IMG/VR virus record: IMGVR_UViG_3300008954_003412
Location: 1-61,126 of that record
Strand: one strand, 5' to 3'
Length of the DNA stretch: 61,126 nucleotides
From: a virus
Part shown: one piece after another, positions 4,548 to 38,920 of the stretch
Numbering within the stretch: position 1 is the first letter of the stretch
Layout of the letters: each line of letters opens with the position of its first letter
Notes under the pieces: generated by a model
What the model saw: only the letters and a program-made list of their open reading frames with translations
What the model was told of the DNA's origin: nothing
Databases searched by the model: none
Position numbers and translations under genes: made by a program

Positions 4548-6479
4548 ATGTCAAAATCAAAATTTGCTGATCTAATCAGCGGTCAAAGAAAAGAGAAAAA
4601 GCAAAAGTCATTCAAGGGTACATTTCTTCAATATCTAGAAGAAGTTGAAAAAAACCCAGGAGCAGCTAGTCTAGCGCATAAACGCCTCTATAGCGTGCTA
4701 GCTAAAGACGGAATTGATGTTTTAGATGAATCTAGTGAAAGATGTAGAACTCTTTTTGATAGTGAGAAAATTAAAGTATATGATTATTTTAAGCCTCACT
4801 TCTTTGGAATGGAAAGATCTTTAGCAAAGATTATGAGATACTTGAAGTCTGCGTCAATGAAAGGCGAAGAGAGTCGACAAGTATTGTTACTCCTTGGCCC
4901 GGTAGGCGCCGGAAAATCTGCGCTAATTGAGCATATTAAGCGTGCGCTCGAATCTGCTCCGCATGTTTACAGCTTAGAAGGTTGCCCAATTAGAGAAGAG
5001 CCTTTACATTTACTGCCACGATCACTTCGTGAAAAATTTGAAGAGCTACTCGGTGTAAAAATTGAAGGCGATCTTTGTCCTGTCTGCCGGCATAGACTTC
5101 TAGAAGAGTTTGATGGAAAATATGAAAAGTTCCCTGTAATTCAAAAATCATTTTCAGTTAGAGGACGCCGCGGAATCGGTGTTGTTCCACCCGTTGATGC
5201 AAATACACAAGATACATCGATACTCATAGGCTCTGAGGATATTTCAAAGCTTGATCTTTATCCAGAGGATGATCCAAGAGTTTTGTCACTTAACGGTGCA
5301 TTCAATGTTGGCAATCGTGGTATTGTAGAGTTTGTTGAGGTCTTTAAGAATGAAATTGAATTCCTTCACACTATGATTACAGCAACGCAAGAAAAGGCAG
5401 TGCCTTCACCCGGAAAAGGGCCAATGATTTATTTCGATGGTGTTATTCTTGCGCACTGCAATGAGGCTGAGTGGAATAAGTTTAAGTCAACCCATACTAA
5501 CGAAGCTATCTTAGATCGTATTGTTCGTGTTAACGTTCCTTATTGTCTTGAACTAGATGAAGAAGTTAAAATCTATAAAAAGATGCTCGGGCTTTCTGAC
5601 TTTGATGCTCACATTGCGCCCCATACCATCGAAGTAGCCTCAATGTTCTCAGTTATGACCCGTCTTAAGCCTTCCGGTAAGGTTGATCCGCTAGTTAAGA
5701 TGAAGATTTATAACGGTGATAATATCATTGAAAAGGGCCGCGTAAAGAAGGTTGACATCAAGGATCTTCGTGAGGAAGTTAGAGATGAAGGAATGACCGG
5801 AATCTCAACAAGATTCATTATGAAGGCAATCGATTCTGCAGTCACAGATTCAGACAGCAATATGGTTACGCCTATTTCTGTAAGGGACTCTCTGATTAAA
5901 CAGGTGAAGGACCAGATCATAGATGAGGAAGCTCGTGAGCGTTACCTTGAGTATCTCCAAAAAACCTTGCACGAGGAATATATGAGAATCCTTGAAAAGG
6001 AAATAACAAAAGCATTTGTTAGCGCGTATGATGAGCAGGCTGAATCATTGTTTGACAATTATCTTGATCATGCTGAAGCATATGTTAACAAGACACGAGT
6101 CAAAGACAGTGTTACTCGTGAAGAAATGGATCCTGATGAGAACTTCATGAAGTCAATTGAAGAAAACATCGGAATCACAGGCTCAGCAAGAGACGGATTC
6201 AGAGCAGATGTTACAACATATATGTTTACTCTCCTTCGCTCCGGAGAAAAGATGAGCTGGAAAGCTTATGGCCCTCTAAAAGAGGCAATTGAGAATAAAT
6301 TGATGGCATCTGTCAAAGATATGTCAAGAATCGTTACTAAATCTAAGTCACGTGATAACAAGCAAAAGAAGAAATATAACGAAATGGTTGAAACGCTTAT
6401 TAATGATTACGGATATAACGAAGATTCTGCAGAAGAAGTAATTAAGTTTGCGGCAAATAACTTGTGGCGCGATAGCTAA
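4548..6479 (+). CDS. prkA: PrkA / YeaG family AAA+ serine protein kinase
   Basis: 643 aa from the ATG at 4548 (a TTG lies one codon upstream, but the SD CGGAG fits the ATG). This is essentially the same length as E. coli YeaG (about 644). The AAA+ P-loop GPVGAGKS is at residues 117-124. A CxxC pair (C177, C180) follows within CPVCRHRL, then SLNGAFNVGNRGIVEFVEVFK and FDGVILAHCNEAEW, the conserved family blocks. The C-terminal PrkA domain occupies roughly residues 390-640. PrkA proteins are AAA+ kinases reported to phosphorylate serine and to act in stress adaptation. It completes a YeaH-SpoVR-PrkA cassette. A 46-base gap with a promoter-like motif could allow separate expression. Confidence 0.94.
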   Translation: MSKSKFADLISGQRKEKKQKSFKGTFLQYLEEVEKNPGAASLAHKRLYSVLAKDGIDVLDESSERCRTLFDSEKIKVYDYFKPHFFGMERSLAKIMRYLKSASMKGEESRQVLLLLGPVGAGKSALIEHIKRALESAPHVYSLEGCPIREEPLHLLPRSLREKFEELLGVKIEGDLCPVCRHRLLEEFDGKYEKFPVIQKSFSVRGRRGIGVVPPVDANTQDTSILIGSEDISKLDLYPEDDPRVLSLNGAFNVGNRGIVEFVEVFKNEIEFLHTMITATQEKAVPSPGKGPMIYFDGVILAHCNEAEWNKFKSTHTNEAILDRIVRVNVPYCLELDEEVKIYKKMLGLSDFDAHIAPHTIEVASMFSVMTRLKPSGKVDPLVKMKIYNGDNIIEKGRVKKVDIKDLREEVRDEGMTGISTRFIMKAIDSAVTDSDSNMVTPISVRDSLIKQVKDQIIDEEARERYLEYLQKTLHEEYMRILEKEITKAFVSAYDEQAESLFDNYLDHAEAYVNKTRVKDSVTREEMDPDENFMKSIEENIGITGSARDGFRADVTTYMFTLLRSGEKMSWKAYGPLKEAIENKLMASVKDMSRIVTKSKSRDNKQKKKYNEMVETLINDYGYNEDSAEEVIKFAANNLWRDS

Positions 6480-6493
6480 AAAAAGATAGGTTT

Positions 6494-7855
6494 ATGAAAT
6501 CTAAGGTTGTCTCTAATGAAAGTTTTACTACTGAGGTAAAGAACTTTCTTCGAAAGATATTAATTTTAATTAACTCACAACAGGCAAAGCAAAAAGTTGC
6601 ATTTTTAATATCAAATTCGCCAAGAACGTCTTCAAGTCCCCTGCTGATGTTGACAACATATCAGCCTGAAAACAGAACTGAAAACATTGTTAAGCAGCTA
6701 ATAATTCAAGAAGCATTTAAGCTAGAAAAGAATCATGCATTTTCAGCCCCTATAATGATAAATTATTTAAAATACTTTTATGAGCTAATGGAACGGCTTG
6801 AAAAGACAAAAACACCACAGAGTAAAATTGACAGCATACTTTCTTGTAAGCTTGATAATCTTTTAGTAGATATTCAAAGCTCACTATCTAGGCCTACAAT
6901 GAAAGATTTGAGTCTGTTTTTTGATAACCAATATGATAAAAAAACAAAATCTTTAATTTTTGAAATCTTAAAATTGGCAGGTCCAGCAGGTAAGATAAAT
7001 TTTAATCATGAAAATATAAATCAGACGATTATCGAATCAAGAATGAAGTATTCATTTGATATAAAGCCTGATGAAAATATTATGATTTTAAATAAGCTTA
7101 AATGGAAGAGGAGTAACGTATCTACTGTTGCAATGGAAAGATTTATTGAAAATGTTTCTGAAATTGATATTATTTTAAACGAGGCATCTAAAAAGAAAAC
7201 CCCTCTTTTGATTTTGTGTCTAGGATATTCTCAAGAAGTTATTTCAACTATAGTTTTGAATAATAAAAGAAAAACATTTGACGTAATGATAGCTACACCC
7301 TGTAAAGACGCAGATGCAATGAATGATCTTACAGATATGACAACTATATTTGGAACTCCATTTCACGGATATCAAACTGGGCCAATCTCATCAATTTTTT
7401 CCCCGGAAGACTTAGATGTAACATGTGAAGAAATTTCAATACTACCTAAAAATATTTTTATTAAAAACAGCAAATCATTTAATGCGGTTCAACAAAGATT
7501 GAAAAGGCTTCAAGATCGCCTAGGCGATCATAATGTTGGCAGTGCTTTGGGTGATAACACTCTAATGGATGATTATTTGCGTCGAAGAATTGAATGCCTA
7601 ACTAGTCATCAAGTAAGAGTCACTCTTCCAGAAGAAAATGCTCAAAAGAAATTTAGCTCTATAGAAAAGATTGATGAAGCTCTCCGAGCTGCTAAATCAA
7701 TAATAAAATATGGAATTATTGATTTTAAAAACAGAGATAACATCGTTGAAAGCGGCGTTTATAACGCAGCTTCTGTTTACCTAGGGATCAAATTTGGTTA
7801 TAAATTATCTAAACAGATACTGTCAATAAAAAATGCAATAATTTTTGACACTTAA
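6494..7855 (+). CDS. degenerate GroEL/Cpn60-like chaperonin lacking the ATP-binding motif
   Basis: 453 aa versus about 548 in GroEL. By eye it follows GroEL from residue 15 to the end. Residues 62-75 match the helix before DGTTT, 137-190 the intermediate domain, and 222-290 the apical domain (TPLLIL, then EVISTIVLNN, ATPCKDADAMNDL, GTPF, against GKPLLI, EALATLVVNT, APGFGDRRKAML, GGT). KIDEALRAAK at 392-401 matches RVEDALHATR, and NAASV at 424-428 matches the C-terminal helix. The DGTTT nucleotide motif is replaced by HAFSAP (81-86). The Gly-rich GGG loop and about 75 equatorial residues after it are missing. It should therefore not hydrolyse ATP, while apical hydrophobic positions remain. It follows prkA by 14 bases. 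A substrate-holding or host-chaperonin-modulating role is inference. Confidence 0.75.
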   Translation: MKSKVVSNESFTTEVKNFLRKILILINSQQAKQKVAFLISNSPRTSSSPLLMLTTYQPENRTENIVKQLIIQEAFKLEKNHAFSAPIMINYLKYFYELMERLEKTKTPQSKIDSILSCKLDNLLVDIQSSLSRPTMKDLSLFFDNQYDKKTKSLIFEILKLAGPAGKINFNHENINQTIIESRMKYSFDIKPDENIMILNKLKWKRSNVSTVAMERFIENVSEIDIILNEASKKKTPLLILCLGYSQEVISTIVLNNKRKTFDVMIATPCKDADAMNDLTDMTTIFGTPFHGYQTGPISSIFSPEDLDVTCEEISILPKNIFIKNSKSFNAVQQRLKRLQDRLGDHNVGSALGDNTLMDDYLRRRIECLTSHQVRVTLPEENAQKKFSSIEKIDEALRAAKSIIKYGIIDFKNRDNIVESGVYNAASVYLGIKFGYKLSKQILSIKNAIIFDT

Positions 7856-9804: not shown

Positions 9805-10151
9805 GGGGCCGATCGGTTTCGACATGATCGGATTTTTAGCTGATGCAAGTCCCAGAGATGCCTGGCTGGGTTATCAAGGCATAAAACAATAATCGCAAAC
9901 GACGATTTTAATCAAATAGCAATCGCAGCTTAAAAACCTGTAGATACTTGAGGCGGCAACAGCCAATAAACAGAAAGTTGCATTTGAGATAAAAAATGGT
10001 TCCCTGGAGACAGGTGGGTTTCTGAGATCACATAGGAAACGGGATTTTAATGTGGATATTTTTTAGCTTAAGAAAAAGCTAATAAAACTTGTAAATGAAT
10101 CACTACAATTGAGGATTATGGACGCGGGTTCGATTCCCGCCGGCTCCACCA
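9805..10151 (+). ncRNA. ssrA: phage-encoded one-piece tmRNA
   Basis: The 5' end GGGGCCGAUCGGUUUCGAC and 3' end GGACGCGGGUUCGAUUCCC-GCCGGCUCCACCA form the tRNA-like domain. The acceptor stem has seven pairs (GGGGCCG with CGGCUCC) and a G-U at the third pair, the identity element for alanyl-tRNA synthetase. The T arm reads GGGUUCGAUUCCC, and CCA is encoded. The resume codon GCA is at 9895. About 347 nt is normal for a one-piece tmRNA, with room for the pseudoknots between 9934 and 10110. tmRNA rescues ribosomes stalled on broken mRNAs and tags the product for proteolysis. It lies directly behind the histone-like gene. Confidence 0.95.
9895..9933 (+). other. tmRNA tag reading frame (ANDDFNQIAIAA-stop)
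   Basis: Translation resumes at GCA and gives ANDDFNQIAIAA before TAA at 9931-9933. The first part (AND) and the small hydrophobic end (IAA) match bacterial tags such as ANDENYALAA. The middle differs and the penultimate motif is AIAA rather than ALAA. The bases around the resume codon (AAUCGCAAACGACGA) are nearly those of E. coli. Confidence 0.93.
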
Positions 10152-31692: not shown

Positions 31693-33354
31693 ATGAAAAC
31701 AATTGCAGAAACTGCCTTTAATCACAATGGTGATCCTGAGTATTTGTGGAGCTTAATAAGTGAAGCTAATAATTCAAAAGCAGATTATGTAACAGTTCAA
31801 GTTATGGACACAGATAGTTTTTGTGTCAAAGACTATGAAAGATATCAGACGTATATTGATACTGAGATAGCATGGAAAAACTGGGTCCACATCTTTGATA
31901 AATGCAAAGAAGCAAATATCAAAGTAATCCCTTGCATACTTGAGGAAACATCCCTGCAGCGCTGCTATGAATATGGATTTAGATTTTTTAAAATTCATGC
32001 GACAGATATTACGAACAAATGTTTTCTAGAAAAAATTGCTTTATATGACGACTGTGTAGTTATTCTTGAAACACAATGTGCTACCAATTTTGACATAAGA
32101 TTTGCACTTGATATCTTGAAAGACAAAGTTGTATGTCTTATGCACGGATTCAGTGATTATCCCACAGAGTTTGAAAACCTTAATTTAAATGCGCTTGATC
32201 ACCTTAAAGAAGAGTTTAATATTCCTACGGGCTTTGCTGACCACTCCTTAGACACACTCGGTATTCCTGTTATGTGTCTATCTAAGGGCTGTGAGTTTAT
32301 TGAAAAGCATATTACACTAACAAGAAATAATAGAAACTTTGACTGGCAGGTTTCGTTATACCCAAACCAGTTTTTGTCAATGGTTTCAAATATTGTGCAC
32401 TACAAGAATGCGATGCAAGGAACTGGTGTTAAGCACCCAACTAAAAGAGAGCTAAGCTATAGATCTGTTCTTTATAAAAAAGTTATTGACAATAGCACGA
32501 ATATGCTTCGTGCTGATTCCGGAATTGACTATATTGGGTCTTCATTTGAGAAATTTAAAAAAAATAATACTGGTGTTGCAGTTATTGCACGACTTAAATC
32601 ACAAAGACTCAAAGAAAAAGTTCTTAAACCTTTTCACACCAACTCTATGATAGTTGACCTTTGTAATCGAGTTTCTTTATCTGGGTTTCCGATTTTTTTA
32701 GCAACTTCAAACTTAAAAGAAGATAAACCTCTTTTAGAATTATGCAAGAATAACAAGATAAAAACTTATGCAGGACACCCGCAGTCAGTTTTAGATAGAA
32801 TGCTCTGGTTAGCTTTTAAAAATGAGTGGGGCGGAATTTTTAGGGTTACGGGTGATAATCCTTTTACAGATCCTGACCTTATGAAAGAAATGTCTAAAAT
32901 GCTAGTCGAAGAAGATCTAGATTATGTAAGAGTAAATGGCGCACCATTTGGAACAACAGCAGAGCTTTTTTCTACGGGCTATCTTTGGAACCTTTATTTA
33001 GAAATGAAAAATCCAATGAACTCTGAATATTTATCCTGGTTTGTTTTGAATGATAAAAATGCAAAGTCAGGAGCAATAAATCTATCTTTAAATAATGATG
33101 ATTTAAAGTTTGTCAATCTTTCTGTTGACTATAAAGAAGATCTAGATAGATGCCTAAGTATTTTAAACAAACTAAACAAGCGTGATTTTAATGAAATAGC
33201 GTTTAATGAAATAATAAACACGATTGATACAGGCGATATTGTTAACAAAAACAAGATAGTAAAATTACCAGAAGGAAAATCTATTACATTGTCTAAATAT
33301 GTTGAAATAATAGAAGACAAACACAAATATATGATTTCTAAAAAACTAAAATGA
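31693..33354 (+). CDS. NeuB-like synthase fused to SpsF-like cytidylyltransferase
   Basis: 553 aa. Residues 1-270 follow sialic acid synthase: IAETAFNHNGDPEYL, NIPTGFADHSLD (ADHS at 182-185) and CEFIEKHITLTR. From about residue 293 an SpsF/CMP-sugar-transferase-like domain follows: VAVIARLKSQRLKEKVLKPF, then ATSNLKEDKPLLELC and IFRVTGDNPFTDPDL (VTGDNP at 385-390). The Arg/Lys-rich nucleotide-binding loop is altered (ARLKSQRLKEK against ARLGSSRLPGK). Fusing condensation with activation would channel a nonulosonate-like sugar directly to its CMP form. The SAF domain typical of NeuB is absent here. Confidence 0.8.
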   Translation: MKTIAETAFNHNGDPEYLWSLISEANNSKADYVTVQVMDTDSFCVKDYERYQTYIDTEIAWKNWVHIFDKCKEANIKVIPCILEETSLQRCYEYGFRFFKIHATDITNKCFLEKIALYDDCVVILETQCATNFDIRFALDILKDKVVCLMHGFSDYPTEFENLNLNALDHLKEEFNIPTGFADHSLDTLGIPVMCLSKGCEFIEKHITLTRNNRNFDWQVSLYPNQFLSMVSNIVHYKNAMQGTGVKHPTKRELSYRSVLYKKVIDNSTNMLRADSGIDYIGSSFEKFKKNNTGVAVIARLKSQRLKEKVLKPFHTNSMIVDLCNRVSLSGFPIFLATSNLKEDKPLLELCKNNKIKTYAGHPQSVLDRMLWLAFKNEWGGIFRVTGDNPFTDPDLMKEMSKMLVEEDLDYVRVNGAPFGTTAELFSTGYLWNLYLEMKNPMNSEYLSWFVLNDKNAKSGAINLSLNNDDLKFVNLSVDYKEDLDRCLSILNKLNKRDFNEIAFNEIINTIDTGDIVNKNKIVKLPEGKSITLSKYVEIIEDKHKYMISKKLK

Positions 33355-34186: not shown

Positions 34187-34861
34187 ATGAACAATAAAAA
34201 TAATATTCTTGTTAGCGTTATTATAACATGCTACAATCTTGAAAAATACATTAGTAGAGCAATTAATAGCTGCATAAATCAGACTTTGCCAGAAAACCAA
34301 TATGAGATTATTGTTGTAGATGATTGTTCTACAGATAGTTCATGGGAAGTAATCTCCCAGTTTAAGGGAATTGCAAAAGTTGCAAGATTAGAAAAAAATT
34401 CCGGTGTCTCTGCTGCATCTAACAAGGCGATAGAAATGTCGTCAGGAAAATATGTTGTAAGAGTTGACGGCGATGACTTCATTAATAAAAACTTTCTTCA
34501 TACAATGTCAGAAGTTCTAGAGTGGAATGACGATATCGGGTTTGTTTATTGCGATCAGATTATTGTCGACAAAGATCTGAGCAGAAAAAAAGAGATCAAT
34601 ACACTTGATCACTTGCTAGATAACGGCGCCGGAGTCCTCCTCAGAAGAAGATATCTTGATGCTATTGGCTTCTATGACGAAACGCTTAGAAATAGAGAAG
34701 ATTACGATCTTTTATTGCGTTACATTAAAAACTTTGACGGATACCGGTTAAGATTACCATATTATAGGTATTTTAAAAGAGAAGGATCTCTTTCTACAAA
34801 AGACTGCGAAAGAGAAACAATTAAAAATTCGATCGATAAGGATAAAAATGTCAAAAGTTGA
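34187..34861 (+). CDS. family 2 glycosyltransferase, 224 aa
   Basis: Textbook GT2: VSVIITCYNLEKYISRAINS, then YEIIVVDDCSTDSSWEV, NSGVSAASNKAIEMSSGKYV and the metal-binding RVDGDDFI. RNREDYDLLLRY is the acceptor-side EDYDL block. The C-terminus is short. Overlaps the SpsE gene by 14 bases, which suggests it may use the sugar made there, though this is only positional inference. Confidence 0.88.
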   Translation: MNNKNNILVSVIITCYNLEKYISRAINSCINQTLPENQYEIIVVDDCSTDSSWEVISQFKGIAKVARLEKNSGVSAASNKAIEMSSGKYVVRVDGDDFINKNFLHTMSEVLEWNDDIGFVYCDQIIVDKDLSRKKEINTLDHLLDNGAGVLLRRRYLDAIGFYDETLRNREDYDLLLRYIKNFDGYRLRLPYYRYFKREGSLSTKDCERETIKNSIDKDKNVKS

Positions 34862-35918
34862 TAATCTTTGGGAAAATCTAAAATCAGGTAAGCCGTTCTT
34901 TATTGCAGAGGCAGGAGTAAATCATTTAGGATCAATCGATCTAGGTGAGAGACTCATTAGAGAAGCAGCTCAAGCGGGAGCTCATGCAATCAAGTTTCAG
35001 TCATATAAAGCAAAAAATCTGTGTATTAAAAATGCTCCAAGGTTTTGGGACTGGGAAGGTGAGCTAGAAGAGGATGGGACTCAGTTTGATTCTTACTCAC
35101 ACTTAGATTCATTTGGGGAGCCCGAGCATGCTGAGCTCAAACGTCTTTGTGATCACTATGATATTGAATTTATGTCCACGCCGTTTGATGATGATGCCAC
35201 AGACTATTTAGATAGAGTGGGAATCAATGCATACAAAATTGCATCATGCGATGTAACAAATCATCCGCTTCTTTCTCACGTAGGTTCAAAGAAAAAGATT
35301 GTAATGCTATCAACGGGAGCTGCATCTTTAGATGAGATTCAAGAGGCAGTAAATGTTTTAGAATCAGCTGGAACTGACAAGATCGTAATTATGCATTGTA
35401 ATCTCAAGTATCCTACAAAACCAAGTCAGATTAATCTATCAATGATTAAGTCTATTAAAGAAAAATTTGGTGATAAATATTTATACGGCTTATCTGATCA
35501 TACAATGACTGTTGAAACTCCTGCATTTTCTTTAATGCTCGGGGCAAATATTGTAGAAAAGCACTACACAGTAGATAAGACTTTGGAAAAAAGTGCAGAT
35601 CATTGGCTTTCTGTTGATCCCGTTCAAGTAAAAGAAATTGTTAGATTAATGAATCTTTCTTGCAAGATGATTGGGGAGTCTGAAGTAAAGAAATGCACTG
35701 ATAGCGAAGAAAGAGCAAGAAAATATGCTAGAAGAAGTGTCGTCTCGCTAGGATCAATCAAGGCAGGTGAAGTATTTACCAGAGATAATATTGCTTGTAA
35801 ACGTCCAGGGACCGGAATATCCCCTAAGCATTTTGATGATATCTTAGGGACAAGAGCAGAAAACAATATCGAAGAAGATACAATTTTGAATAAAAAAGAT
35901 TTAAGGATAACATTCTAA
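34848..35918 (+). CDS. neuB: nonulosonic acid synthase (NeuB/SpsE family) with SAF domain
   Basis: 356 aa, full family length. FIAEAGVNHLGSIDLGE, AHAIKFQSYKAKNL, EFMSTPFDDDATDYLD, MLSTGAASLDEIQEAV, MHCNLKYPTKPSQINL, YGLSDHTMTVETP and VEKHYTVDKTLEKSADH are all NeuB/SpsE blocks. The C-terminal antifreeze-like SAF domain (VVSLGSIKAGEVFTRDNIAC, then GTGISPKHFDDILG) is intact. It condenses phosphoenolpyruvate with a hexosamine derivative to a sialic- or legionaminic/pseudaminic-type acid. A second, fused NeuB lies 2 kb upstream. Confidence 0.92.
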   Translation: MSKVDNLWENLKSGKPFFIAEAGVNHLGSIDLGERLIREAAQAGAHAIKFQSYKAKNLCIKNAPRFWDWEGELEEDGTQFDSYSHLDSFGEPEHAELKRLCDHYDIEFMSTPFDDDATDYLDRVGINAYKIASCDVTNHPLLSHVGSKKKIVMLSTGAASLDEIQEAVNVLESAGTDKIVIMHCNLKYPTKPSQINLSMIKSIKEKFGDKYLYGLSDHTMTVETPAFSLMLGANIVEKHYTVDKTLEKSADHWLSVDPVQVKEIVRLMNLSCKMIGESEVKKCTDSEERARKYARRSVVSLGSIKAGEVFTRDNIACKRPGTGISPKHFDDILGTRAENNIEEDTILNKKDLRITF

Positions 35919-36934
35919 TGAAAATAGGAATAGTAGGACAAGGCTTTGTGGGCTCGGCAGTAAGAGAAGGTTTAAGAGACTACTTTGATCTTGCAACTTT
36001 TGACTTAAATAAAAAAGAAGACTTCGCTGTAAACGAATTAAGCAATCTAGTTTATCAATCAAATATTATTTTTCAATGCCTCCCAACACCAATGAGAAAG
36101 TCCGGAGAATGTGATACTCGATTAGTTGAAAATACAGTTCTTGAAATTGATAGACTTGCTGGAGAATTTAACTTTAATGATAGAATCGTAGTTATTAAAT
36201 CAACAGTCCCGCCTGGCACAACAGAGCACCTTAATAGTAAAGTTGAAAATATTCAAGTAGTATTCAATCCTGAGTTTCTTACAGAAGCCAATGCAATCAA
36301 TGACTATAAAAACCAGAATAGAATTATTATAGGTGGCCCTCGCCCTGCAACTTCAGTTCTTAAGACAGTATTTGACAAAGCATTTCCAAAAGCTTCGATT
36401 ATTAAAACTGGTTCAAATACAGCCGAGATGGTAAAGTATTTCATCAATACATTTTTATCTACAAAGGTAAGTTTTGCAAATGAGATTCGACAGATTTGCG
36501 AAAAGTCAAATATTGACTACGATAAAGTTGTTGAATATGCGCTCTATGACCAACGCCTAGGAAAATCACACTTCTCTTCCCCAGGCCCAGATGGATCTTA
36601 TGGATTTGGTGGTCATTGTGTTAGGGGAAATGTAAAAGTAAAAACAAATCAAGGCGGCATATCATTTGAAGAGCTATATAATAAATTTGTTGATAGTAGC
36701 ATTCTGAACATGACCATTGAGAGTACAAACTACTTATTAGACGAGCATGAAGCTAAAAATATAAAATGTGTTACGAAAAATTCTTATTCTGGGCAAATGA
36801 TTAAGTTGATATTTGGTAAACATGCTTTCGAGTGCACAGAGAATCACTTAATACCCATTAAAAGAGCCGGAGTAGATTTACTCATAGAAGCAAAATATAT
36901 TACATGTAAAGATGAAATATATATAGCACACTGA
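35918..36934 (+). CDS. ugd: UDP-glucose/GDP-mannose dehydrogenase N-terminal fragment fused to IntN of a split intein
   Basis: 338 aa. Residues 1-233 are the dehydrogenase: GQGFVG (7-12), CLPTPMRKSGECD, KSTVPPGTTEH, NPEFLTEANAINDYKNQNRI, NTAEMVKYFINTFLSTKVSF and DGSYGFGGH. At Cys234 (36617-36619) the sequence leaves the family and becomes an intein N-half: CVRGNVKVKTNQGG with splicing block B HAFECTENHLIPI. The gene then stops. The matching IntC and the remaining enzyme are encoded at 37734-38039. The joined product would read GFGGH-CFPKDL. Full-length bacterial enzymes have a C-terminal domain that is missing here (285 aa after splicing). Confidence 0.9.
   Translation: MKIGIVGQGFVGSAVREGLRDYFDLATFDLNKKEDFAVNELSNLVYQSNIIFQCLPTPMRKSGECDTRLVENTVLEIDRLAGEFNFNDRIVVIKSTVPPGTTEHLNSKVENIQVVFNPEFLTEANAINDYKNQNRIIIGGPRPATSVLKTVFDKAFPKASIIKTGSNTAEMVKYFINTFLSTKVSFANEIRQICEKSNIDYDKVVEYALYDQRLGKSHFSSPGPDGSYGFGGHCVRGNVKVKTNQGGISFEELYNKFVDSSILNMTIESTNYLLDEHEAKNIKCVTKNSYSGQMIKLIFGKHAFECTENHLIPIKRAGVDLLIEAKYITCKDEIYIAH
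36617..36931 (+). other. IntN: N-terminal half of split intein, 105 aa
   Basis: Starts with nucleophile Cys1 right after extein residue His233. Block A is CVRGNVKVKTNQGGISFEEL; block B holds the T-x2-H motif (TENH) in FECTENHLIPI. Length is in the range of known naturally split IntN pieces (about 90-110 aa). No endonuclease domain is fused. Confidence 0.88.
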
Positions 36935-36952
36935 TACCTATAACAGAAGACA

Positions 36953-37741
36953 ATGACCGATGGATACCAAATGTCGTTTATAAGATACTGCTCTACGGGT
37001 AAAGATAATTTACCTAATACAAAAACGATTTGTCACGTTGTTTGTGATTTGTGTGAAAGTGAATTTAATAGAAAATACACGACGAGACAAAAGCACTTGA
37101 AAGATTCCGACATTGCTGGCGACTTTTGTCAAGGCTGCATACAAAAACTACCAGCGAAAAGAAAGAAAATGTCAGCGGCAATAAAAAATATGATAAAAAA
37201 AGATCCTAGCTGGAGCAAAAGAAATTCTGAATCTAAGCTGGGAAAGATTAATATCGGTGATAAAAACGGAATGAAGCAATTTGATGCCCGAAAAAAAGTT
37301 TCAAACTTCCGAAAGAAAATGTTTAAAAATCCAGAAAATCGACAAAAAGTTGCAACTGCAACAGCAAAAGCCTGGGCCAATGGTAAATATGATAGTGTTA
37401 ACGTCGGGAGATGTAAATGGCATAGTTATAGAAAGAAAGATGGATCTATAGCAAAGTGCCAGGGAACGTGGGAGTTAGCATATGCTAAATGGCTAGATGA
37501 TAATGATGTCGAATTCATAGCACACCGAGGCCGAATAAAGTATGTTCAAGATGGCATTTCTAGATCATATTATCCAGACTTTTATCTGATAAAAAGTGAT
37601 GAGTACATTGATGTTAAAAATAAATATCATTTTTCACTAAACGAGGAAAAGTTTGTTCTAATTTCTGAACAAAATCCTAACATAACAATAAAAATTCTCT
37701 TTAAGAGCCAGTTAGAGAAAATGGGAGTATGCTTTGATTAA
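36953..37741 (+). CDS. free-standing Vsr-like (EDxHD-type) homing endonuclease between the intein halves
   Basis: 262 aa. Residues 28-55 contain a zinc-knuckle-like arrangement (CDLCESEF and FCQGC). Residues about 70-145 are basic helical repeats resembling nuclease-associated DNA-binding modules (KKMSAAIKNMI, KKVSNFRKKMF, QKVATATAKAW). The catalytic region from about 160 (CQGTWELAYAKWLDDNDVEF, then YYPDFYLIKSDEYIDVKNK) matches the Vsr-like endonuclease fold, with Glu, Asp and Asp-x-Lys in order. It is in the same frame as IntN, behind two stop codons, and its 3' end overlaps the IntC start. It presumably cuts the intein-free allele to spread the cassette. Confidence 0.82.
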   Translation: MTDGYQMSFIRYCSTGKDNLPNTKTICHVVCDLCESEFNRKYTTRQKHLKDSDIAGDFCQGCIQKLPAKRKKMSAAIKNMIKKDPSWSKRNSESKLGKINIGDKNGMKQFDARKKVSNFRKKMFKNPENRQKVATATAKAWANGKYDSVNVGRCKWHSYRKKDGSIAKCQGTWELAYAKWLDDNDVEFIAHRGRIKYVQDGISRSYYPDFYLIKSDEYIDVKNKYHFSLNEEKFVLISEQNPNITIKILFKSQLEKMGVCFD

Positions 37742-37880
37742 GACAATAAAGATCGACAAGATAGAATCACTTAAGTTTACAGGAAATGTGTATAACTTAG
37801 AGCTAGTCACTAATGATTCTGCACCTGATCACGATGATTTATACTGGGTAGATGATTTGACCGGAATAATAACACATAAT
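37734..37880 (+). other. IntC: C-terminal half of split intein, 49 aa
   Basis: Encoded from the TTG to the Asn codon before Cys+1. It carries blocks F and G, with terminal THN and +1 Cys. Length is near that of natural IntC pieces (about 37-50 aa). Together with IntN it makes a 154-aa mini-intein. Confidence 0.88.
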
Positions 37881-38039
37881 TGTTTTCCAAAAGATTTAAA
37901 TGCGCTTATTTTTATGGCGTCTGAGCTTGGGATATCACCAACAGTTATGAAAGCTGTGTGGGAAAAGAATAACGAAGTCAGGCAGCCAGAGTTTAGAGAC
38001 TGGGAAGAAATGTCTGGAAGAGCAGTAAGCGAAGACTAA
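37734..38039 (+). CDS. ugd: IntC of the split intein fused to UDP-glucose dehydrogenase C-fragment
   Basis: 101 aa. TTG start with GGGAG 6 bases upstream, embedded in the end of the endonuclease gene (8-base overlap). Residues 1-49 are IntC: VYNLELVTND is block F, and LYWVDDLTGIITHN ends in the splicing His-Asn. Residue 50 (37881-37883) is Cys+1, opening CFPKDLNALIFMASELG, the dehydrogenase active-site block, so the catalytic Cys is also the splicing nucleophile. Translation is in a different frame from the N-half, so ribosomal read-through cannot join them. Confidence 0.9.
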   Translation: MIKTIKIDKIESLKFTGNVYNLELVTNDSAPDHDDLYWVDDLTGIITHNCFPKDLNALIFMASELGISPTVMKAVWEKNNEVRQPEFRDWEEMSGRAVSED

Positions 38040-38920
38040 TGAATATTCTTGTCACAGGCGGCAGCGGCTTTATAGGATCCCATATTGTCGAAGAGACTTT
38101 AAAGATAGGATGGAATGTATCTGTTATAGATAATGAATCTGCGCCAGAGAACAATAAGTTCTATAAATTTGACAATGCTGTGTATCATAAGCTTGATATA
38201 GTAAATGATAATATTGATCTATTATTTGAAAATATTGACTATGTTTTCCACCTCGCTGCAAAGTCAAGGATTCAACCTTCAATCAACTCACCCGGAAGTG
38301 CATTCGATACAAACGTCATAGGCACGCAGAGAGTCCTGGAGTGTGCTCTGAGACACTCTGTTAAGAAAGTGATTTACTCATCATCTTCGTCTTGCTACGG
38401 TCACAGAAATCAACCTCCTCATCGCGAGGATATGATACCAGATTGCCAGACACCCTACTCGTTGTCAAAGAAGCAGGGAGAAGAACTATGTCATCTTTAT
38501 TCTAAGCTTTATGGACTTTCAACTATCACGTTGCGTTATTTCAACGTTTACGGACCGAGAGAGCCAATCAAAGGGCAATATGCTCCTGTTATAGGCCTCT
38601 TTAAAAGAATGAAAGAAAATGGCCAACCCTTATCTGTTGTTGGTGACGGAGAACAAAGAAGAGATTTCACATACGTCAAAGATGTAGTTAGAGCAAATCT
38701 GATGGCAGCTGAATCTCCAATACATCATGACTTATTTAATATAGGGACTGGTCGAAATTATTCAATTAATGAGGTCGCAAAAATGATTGATGACGATATT
38801 GTTTATACACCTTCTCGAGTAGGAGAAGCAAGAGAGACACTTGCAAACATATCAAAGGCAACCCAATTACTTGGCTGGTCTCCTGAGCACAAGCTTGAAG
38901 ATACAATTCGTGAGTATTGA
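38039..38920 (+). CDS. NAD-dependent nucleotide-sugar epimerase/dehydratase, 293 aa
   Basis: Extended SDR: TGGSGFIGSHIVE Rossmann loop, VFHLAAKSRIQPS, SSSSSCYGH with catalytic Ser, TPYSLSKKQGE (YxxxK), and LRYFNVYGPREP, GEQRRDFTYVKDV. Nearest to UDP-glucose 4-epimerases and UDP-glucuronate-using epimerases or decarboxylases. As it starts on the last base of the dehydrogenase gene (TAATG), a UDP-glucuronate substrate is a reasonable inference. Confidence 0.85.
   Translation: MNILVTGGSGFIGSHIVEETLKIGWNVSVIDNESAPENNKFYKFDNAVYHKLDIVNDNIDLLFENIDYVFHLAAKSRIQPSINSPGSAFDTNVIGTQRVLECALRHSVKKVIYSSSSSCYGHRNQPPHREDMIPDCQTPYSLSKKQGEELCHLYSKLYGLSTITLRYFNVYGPREPIKGQYAPVIGLFKRMKENGQPLSVVGDGEQRRDFTYVKDVVRANLMAAESPIHHDLFNIGTGRNYSINEVAKMIDDDIVYTPSRVGEARETLANISKATQLLGWSPEHKLEDTIREY

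Follow-up and report, generated by a model that had tools for sequence, protein, structure and literature searches.

A probable homing split intein at the catalytic Cys codon of a phage gene for a nucleotide-sugar dehydrogenase

Introduction

In fractured genes, reportedly described by Dassa et al. in 2009 and mostly from phages, a split intein and a free-standing endonuclease gene are said to lie between the two halves of a coding region; the hosts reportedly comprised eight types of enzymes for the synthesis and repair of DNA, and half of the loci are said to have carried Vsr-related endonucleases. Here, we analyzed a dehydrogenase locus in a 61,126-base virus record (IMG/VR record IMGVR_UViG_3300008954_003412, all of which is referred to as the window) that has the same arrangement but differs in its nucleotide-sugar dehydrogenase host and in its nuclease, which is of the PD-(D/E)XK type and resembles T7 endonuclease I.

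Contiguous inteins of the 'udp' allele are known from the UDP-glucose 6-dehydrogenase of Halobacteria and others (PMC4071816), in the same host family as the window intein and very probably at the same cysteine codon. The split inteins gp41-1, NrdJ-1 and IMPDH-1 likewise are class 1 inteins of phage or metagenomic origin, but they occupy other host genes and sites, and the C-terminal intein halves (IntC) of the family examined here have DDLFW where block F is usual. For a Campylobacter phage with both a UDP-glucose dehydrogenase and inteins, the inteins are in other genes. We found no report of a split intein in a nucleotide-sugar dehydrogenase in the literature searched. The window thus presents the known fractured-gene arrangement in a host gene for which no earlier report was found. 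An initial annotation of this DNA, made from the letters alone, had considered the host gene new, which agrees with the literature searched as regards the fractured form but does not hold for inteins in general, given the contiguous 'udp' inteins and the 84 cellular loci with an intein at the same codon described below.

Results

A dehydrogenase gene interrupted by a 1,264 bp insertion

The N-gene (35918-36934) encodes an N-extein followed by the N-terminal intein half (IntN). The C-gene (37734-38039), whose start overlaps the end of the endonuclease gene, begins with IntC and continues after THN with CFPKDLNAL, for a total of 52 amino acids (aa) of the dehydrogenase end. The endonuclease gene between the halves (36953-37741) has its own start and stop. 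The features are as follows, with L001 denoting the closest relative.

36617..37880, + strand: whole insertion, 1,264 bp, absent from the syntenic empty allele L001
35918..36616, + strand: N-extein, 233 aa, ending in GFGGH; matches PF03721/PF00984 and is 68% identical to the intact L001 gene
36617..36934, + strand: IntN, 105 aa plus stop, with Cys1 and block B CTENH; TIGR01445 above cut-off, profile matches to solved inteins, model confidence (pLDDT) 87
36953..37741, + strand: free-standing endonuclease, 262 aa; columns invariant across 15 homologs, profile match to T7 endonuclease I (1m0d) at E = 4e-6, PF05367 in 6 of 15
37734..37880, + strand: IntC, 49 aa, TTG start, VYNLEL...DDLYW...GIITHN; aligned with 18 other IntC, profile matches same-site contiguous inteins and no shuffled control
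37881..38039, + strand: C-extein of 52 aa and a stop codon, opening with CFPKD, whose Cys is the catalytic one (+1), with the end RDWEEMSGRAVSED; 65% identity to the uninterrupted L001 gene at its 3' end

The insertion point is directly before the catalytic Cys codon of GFGGxC(F/L)PKD, and joining the exteins gives 233 + 52 = 285 aa. Since the half-genes are in different frames, read-through cannot join them, and translation as one long frame was ruled out. On sequence grounds, the locus is a fractured gene, with a coding region in two parts, an intein half on each, an endonuclease gene between them and intact homologs elsewhere. The initial annotation had drawn the same anatomy, an IntN with Cys1 and TENH on the N-gene, a separate endonuclease gene, and a TTG-started C-gene with IntC, THN and the rest of the enzyme, as well as the joined length of 285 aa, all of which held up here.

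The two halves resemble a class 1 intein

A six-frame search of the record with TIGR01445, the model for the intein N-terminus, gave IntN as the sole match, which starts exactly at Cys1 with 24.9 bits against a cut-off of 24.5. The class 1 residues are present (C1, T74 and H77 in IntN, H48 and N49 in IntC, and the +1 Cys), and by the usual motif criteria the halves together fit a class 1 intein. A profile of IntN matched solved inteins, with the best E-values for MjaKlbA (3.6e-9), PI-PkoII (9e-7) and NrdJ-1 (8ubs, 8e-6). The 33 best PDB matches to an AlphaFold model of IntN (pLDDT 87) all were inteins or intein-like splicing domains, with the Npu DnaE split intein first, and none had an E-value below 0.001.

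The residues invariant among 15 aligned IntN are Cys1, Thr and His of block B, a downstream Asp and a few others, and the other IntN are 25-38% identical to that of the window. The IntC share the consensus MKTxKIxKIEKxxYxGxVYNLELxSxSxxDDLFWIExxxGIVTHN. Tested against 89 contiguous inteins at the same site, the IntN profile matched 77 and no shuffled sequence, while the IntC profile matched 26 at E <= 1e-3 and 0 of 267 shuffled sequences. Most IntN and IntC comparisons between related loci gave ratios of nonsynonymous to synonymous substitution rates (dN/dS) of 0.06 to 0.33.

A T7 endonuclease I-like nuclease between the halves

The 262 aa endonuclease has an N-terminal CxxC zinc-finger-like part, a helical middle and a C-terminal PD-(D/E)XK domain. 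Invariant across the 15 homologs are Cys31, Cys34, Cys59, QGTWE174, His191, YYPD209F, D220 and K222, among which E174, D209, D220 and K222 are the active-site residues of the PD-(D/E)XK pattern. A profile of the homologs aligns in register with T7 endonuclease I, at the E-value listed above, and Pfam families found among them were PF05367 (Phage_endo_I) and, in 13 of the 15, DUF7487. Fold matches to a model of the endonuclease were weak (best 0.085) and mostly to PD-(D/E)XK-type nucleases. We assign the protein to the PD-(D/E)XK nucleases, as a predicted relative of T7 endonuclease I. The PD-(D/E)XK residues of the latter (PF05367) are in register with the C-terminal domain of the window nuclease, which differs in its additional N-terminal zinc-finger-like and helical region and in being presumably site-specific, whereas the T7 enzyme resolves junctions.

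The label "Vsr-like" given in the initial annotation did not survive this analysis. The PDB profile search matched no Vsr or I-Bth0305I chain at E <= 1, no Pfam family of the Vsr/EDxHD type was found, and the invariant residues are those of PD-(D/E)XK. As EDxHD and PD-(D/E)XK active sites are related (PMC6083498, PMC3943268), the label is near in mechanism but unsupported as a family.

The host is a short dehydrogenase without the UDP-binding domain

The N-extein matches PF03721 (2e-23) and PF00984 (7.5e-19). It spans the NAD-binding domain of a short nucleotide-sugar dehydrogenase and the greater part of its central domain, and contains KSTVPPGT, NPEFLTEA, AEMVKYFIN and GFGGH. The UDP-binding domain, PF03720, was found neither in the window enzyme nor in any of the four intein-free viral relatives scanned, whereas it is present in the cellular family members scanned. 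We read the host as a short two-domain dehydrogenase, for which the original designation, UDP-glucose dehydrogenase, stands as a family-level name, backed by PF03721 and PF00984 but not by PF03720. The family tail GRAVS is retained in the C-extein of the window.

Viral relatives such as L001, L007, L028 and L035 are dehydrogenases of about 280 aa that lack PF03720 and share the tail RDWExMxGRAVS; without this domain, their reaction is uncertain despite the common annotation.

In UDP-glucose dehydrogenases, the Cys and Asp of GFGGxC(F/L)PKD are catalytic, and their partners are the Thr of KSTVPPGT, the Glu of PEFLTE, and the Lys and Asn of AEMVKYFIN. With the Cys and Asp in the C half and the partner residues in the N half, neither half alone would have an active site.

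Empty, split, decayed and contiguous states occur at one codon

The initial annotation had called for a search for the unbroken gene in related phages, and such genes are plentiful. A scan of viral contigs with the N-gene recovered 36 relatives, 40-69% identical and all uninterrupted at the site; the intein-free relatives complete at their 5' side are 271-313 aa long. L001 is an empty allele, with the matches to the two exteins directly adjoining each other (6001-6702 and 6703-6858). Its neighbours match those of the window at 60-84% identity, and the order of these genes is almost unchanged (glycosyltransferase, NeuB, sugar epimerase, PD-(D/E)XK protein and two glycosyltransferases).

Occupied loci were recovered in two ways. 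A search of viral contigs with the endonuclease gave one further such locus, L038, and a codon scan for HN-C(L/F)PKD gave 30 loci. In addition to the window, at least 18 distinct viral loci (sequences were the same or nearly so for L038/L071, L048/L059 and L056/L061) have a short C-gene with an IntC of 42-49 aa ahead of the C-extein at the same codon. Upstream of these C-genes, where the contig is long enough, is an IntN-tailed N-gene together with a nuclease gene or its remnant. The same layout at 18 other distinct loci makes the arrangement more than chance. When viral contigs were searched with IntN alone, the sole matches were to a glycosyltransferase-like protein (L041-L043) and are attributed to chance.

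In L058 and L049, deletion has left no more than a C-terminal remnant of the nuclease gene, and both intein halves remain open and conserved. These intact halves, with most of the endonuclease gone, indicate that the intein is maintained without it. At L033:430-1477 (5' side truncated), the dehydrogenase is uninterrupted with an altered site, GFSGSCFPKD, and the gene directly after it encodes a member of the same nuclease family that terminates in RKNRDWEEMKGRAVI, a typical dehydrogenase tail present as a stray copy. This locus looks like one healed by recombination that left the nuclease outside. Putative extra free-standing endonuclease genes are found immediately upstream of the fractured dehydrogenase at L065:6913-7680 and L071:5578-6072, and the dehydrogenase region seems to attract homing genes.

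Contiguous inteins occupy the same codon in five viral contigs (L045, L046, L050/L073, L051 and L052). Those of L046 and L052 contain LAGLIDADG domains, and that of L050 is a 170 aa mini-intein in a host gene with the start of the UDP-binding domain. Among 113 loci from a scan of bacterial and archaeal genomes, 84 have a contiguous intein of 169-495 aa excisable at the same site, and none has the fractured form. Because Halorubrum is among these loci with an intein at the same Cys codon, the cellular contiguous inteins very probably are the 'udp' allele of PMC4071816. In contrast to the window intein, they are in one piece, carry a LAGLIDADG domain (in two cellular ones scanned) and reside in enzymes that retain the UDP-binding domain. 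The C-gene matched none of 50,697 annotated phage records at E <= 0.01.

Trees indicate movement of the intein between host lineages

The tree of joined exteins pairs the window with the empty L001 as sisters (support 98/97), while the L049 extein falls in a different clade, one that also contains empty genes. In the intein tree, however, the window is sister to L049 (bootstrap 100), and forcing the window and L049 exteins together was rejected (p-AU 0.0002). This conflict points to an intein that moved between lineages separately from its host gene, that is, to horizontal movement. To account for the extein tree, the split state must have changed three or more times along branches with good support. 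The split inteins and the main contiguous 'udp' inteins form one group with a bootstrap of 100, as opposed to gp41-1, IMPDH-1, NrdJ-1 and Npu DnaE and to four viral contiguous inteins. Monophyly of all viral split inteins had a bootstrap of only 32.

Genome context

The dehydrogenase is part of a surface-sugar cluster with NeuB, a NeuB-cytidylyltransferase fusion, glycosyltransferases and an epimerase. The fusion, a NeuB-like synthase joined to a cytidylyltransferase domain, is at 31693-33354 of the window, and the second NeuB gene is at 34848-35918; the NeuB genes suggest a nonulosonic-acid type pathway on the phage. The phage has a T4-like contractile-tail baseplate protein, to which the nearest annotated relatives are only 33% identical. 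Elsewhere in the window are a transfer-messenger RNA (tmRNA) gene at 9805-10151 (tag ANDDFNQIAIAA; Rfam RF00023, 118 bits) and, at 6494-7855, a protein with a modest match (1e-16) to the phage GroEL family phrog_5725.

Discussion

The element very probably is a homing split intein, in a fractured gene, at the codon for the catalytic Cys of a phage nucleotide-sugar dehydrogenase. Two half-proteins would be made separately. Once IntN and IntC had associated, class 1 trans-splicing through Cys1, the Thr-x-x-His of block B, the His-Asn at the end of IntC and the +1 Cys would join the exteins of 233 aa and 52 aa, giving an enzyme of 285 aa with its catalytic Cys as the +1 residue. The PD-(D/E)XK endonuclease would cut intein-free copies of the gene at or near the site in co-infecting phages, after which repair would copy the entire 1.26 kb insert into the cut phage gene. 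We consider trans-splicing highly probable, and both endonuclease-driven homing, which the mobility of the intein supports indirectly, and dehydrogenase activity after ligation likely. The initial annotation's recognition of a fractured gene is strengthened by the additional viral loci with the same layout and by the IntN matches to solved inteins, and its view that the enzyme would work only after trans-splicing appears well supported.

Several observations weigh against this interpretation. IntC matched no intein family model and, in the PDB profile search, no solved intein; its block F region (DDLFW) is atypical; and, as His-Asn and the +1 Cys were built into the search pattern, their conservation is not independent evidence. 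Two pairs have higher dN/dS (0.79 for the IntC of L044/L063 and 0.66 for the IntN of L066/L068), suggesting that constraint is looser on the intein halves than on the N-exteins. The fold search with the endonuclease model gave no match below E = 0.001.

Other explanations would dispense with splicing or with the enzyme. An endonuclease gene could have broken the dehydrogenase gene into pieces whose products assemble as a non-covalent complex. A precedent, cited in PMC10448857 and PMC3322345, is a ribonucleotide reductase of a phage that a homing endonuclease gene reportedly divides in this way. Such an origin would leave no reason for intein parts with conserved splicing residues on both halves across diverse loci, or for their retention where the endonuclease has decayed (L049 and L058). 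Moreover, judging from UDP-glucose dehydrogenases, an unligated N half would lack the catalytic Cys and Asp, and we regard this explanation as very unlikely. We give as little credence to the idea that the phage carries the element as a dying parasite and makes no enzyme from the broken gene. Half-genes could appear intact soon after loss of function, and TTG is a weak start codon; yet all frames are open, the splicing motifs are present along with KSTVPPGT, PEFLTEA, AEMVKYFIN and CFPKD, which hold the catalytic residues, the GRAVS tail is kept, and the layout recurs at 18 loci.

An interruption at the RNA level, in which a group I or group II intron would carry the endonuclease gene, is almost negligible as an explanation. 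Phage introns often contain free endonuclease genes, but no Rfam match was found in 36400-38100 even at E up to 5, and both IntN and IntC represent families of translated proteins that match inteins.

The split intein might, in addition to homing, be a post-translational switch, with redox state, metal or the ratio of the halves timing nucleotide-sugar synthesis during infection. With the catalytic Cys doubling as the +1 splicing nucleophile, the enzyme would be inactive until the halves meet and splice. We think such a role very improbable; if real, it would explain why the halves persist after loss of the endonuclease.

A homing split intein at this site brings an enzyme of carbohydrate metabolism into the range of fractured-gene hosts, and its diverse natural IntN/IntC pairs are candidate trans-splicing tools. 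The loci form an almost complete series of states at a single codon: genes without an insert, contiguous LAGLIDADG inteins, split inteins whose endonuclease is either whole or decayed, and an uninterrupted gene next to a stray endonuclease. This series makes the origin and persistence of split inteins directly testable with natural sequences.

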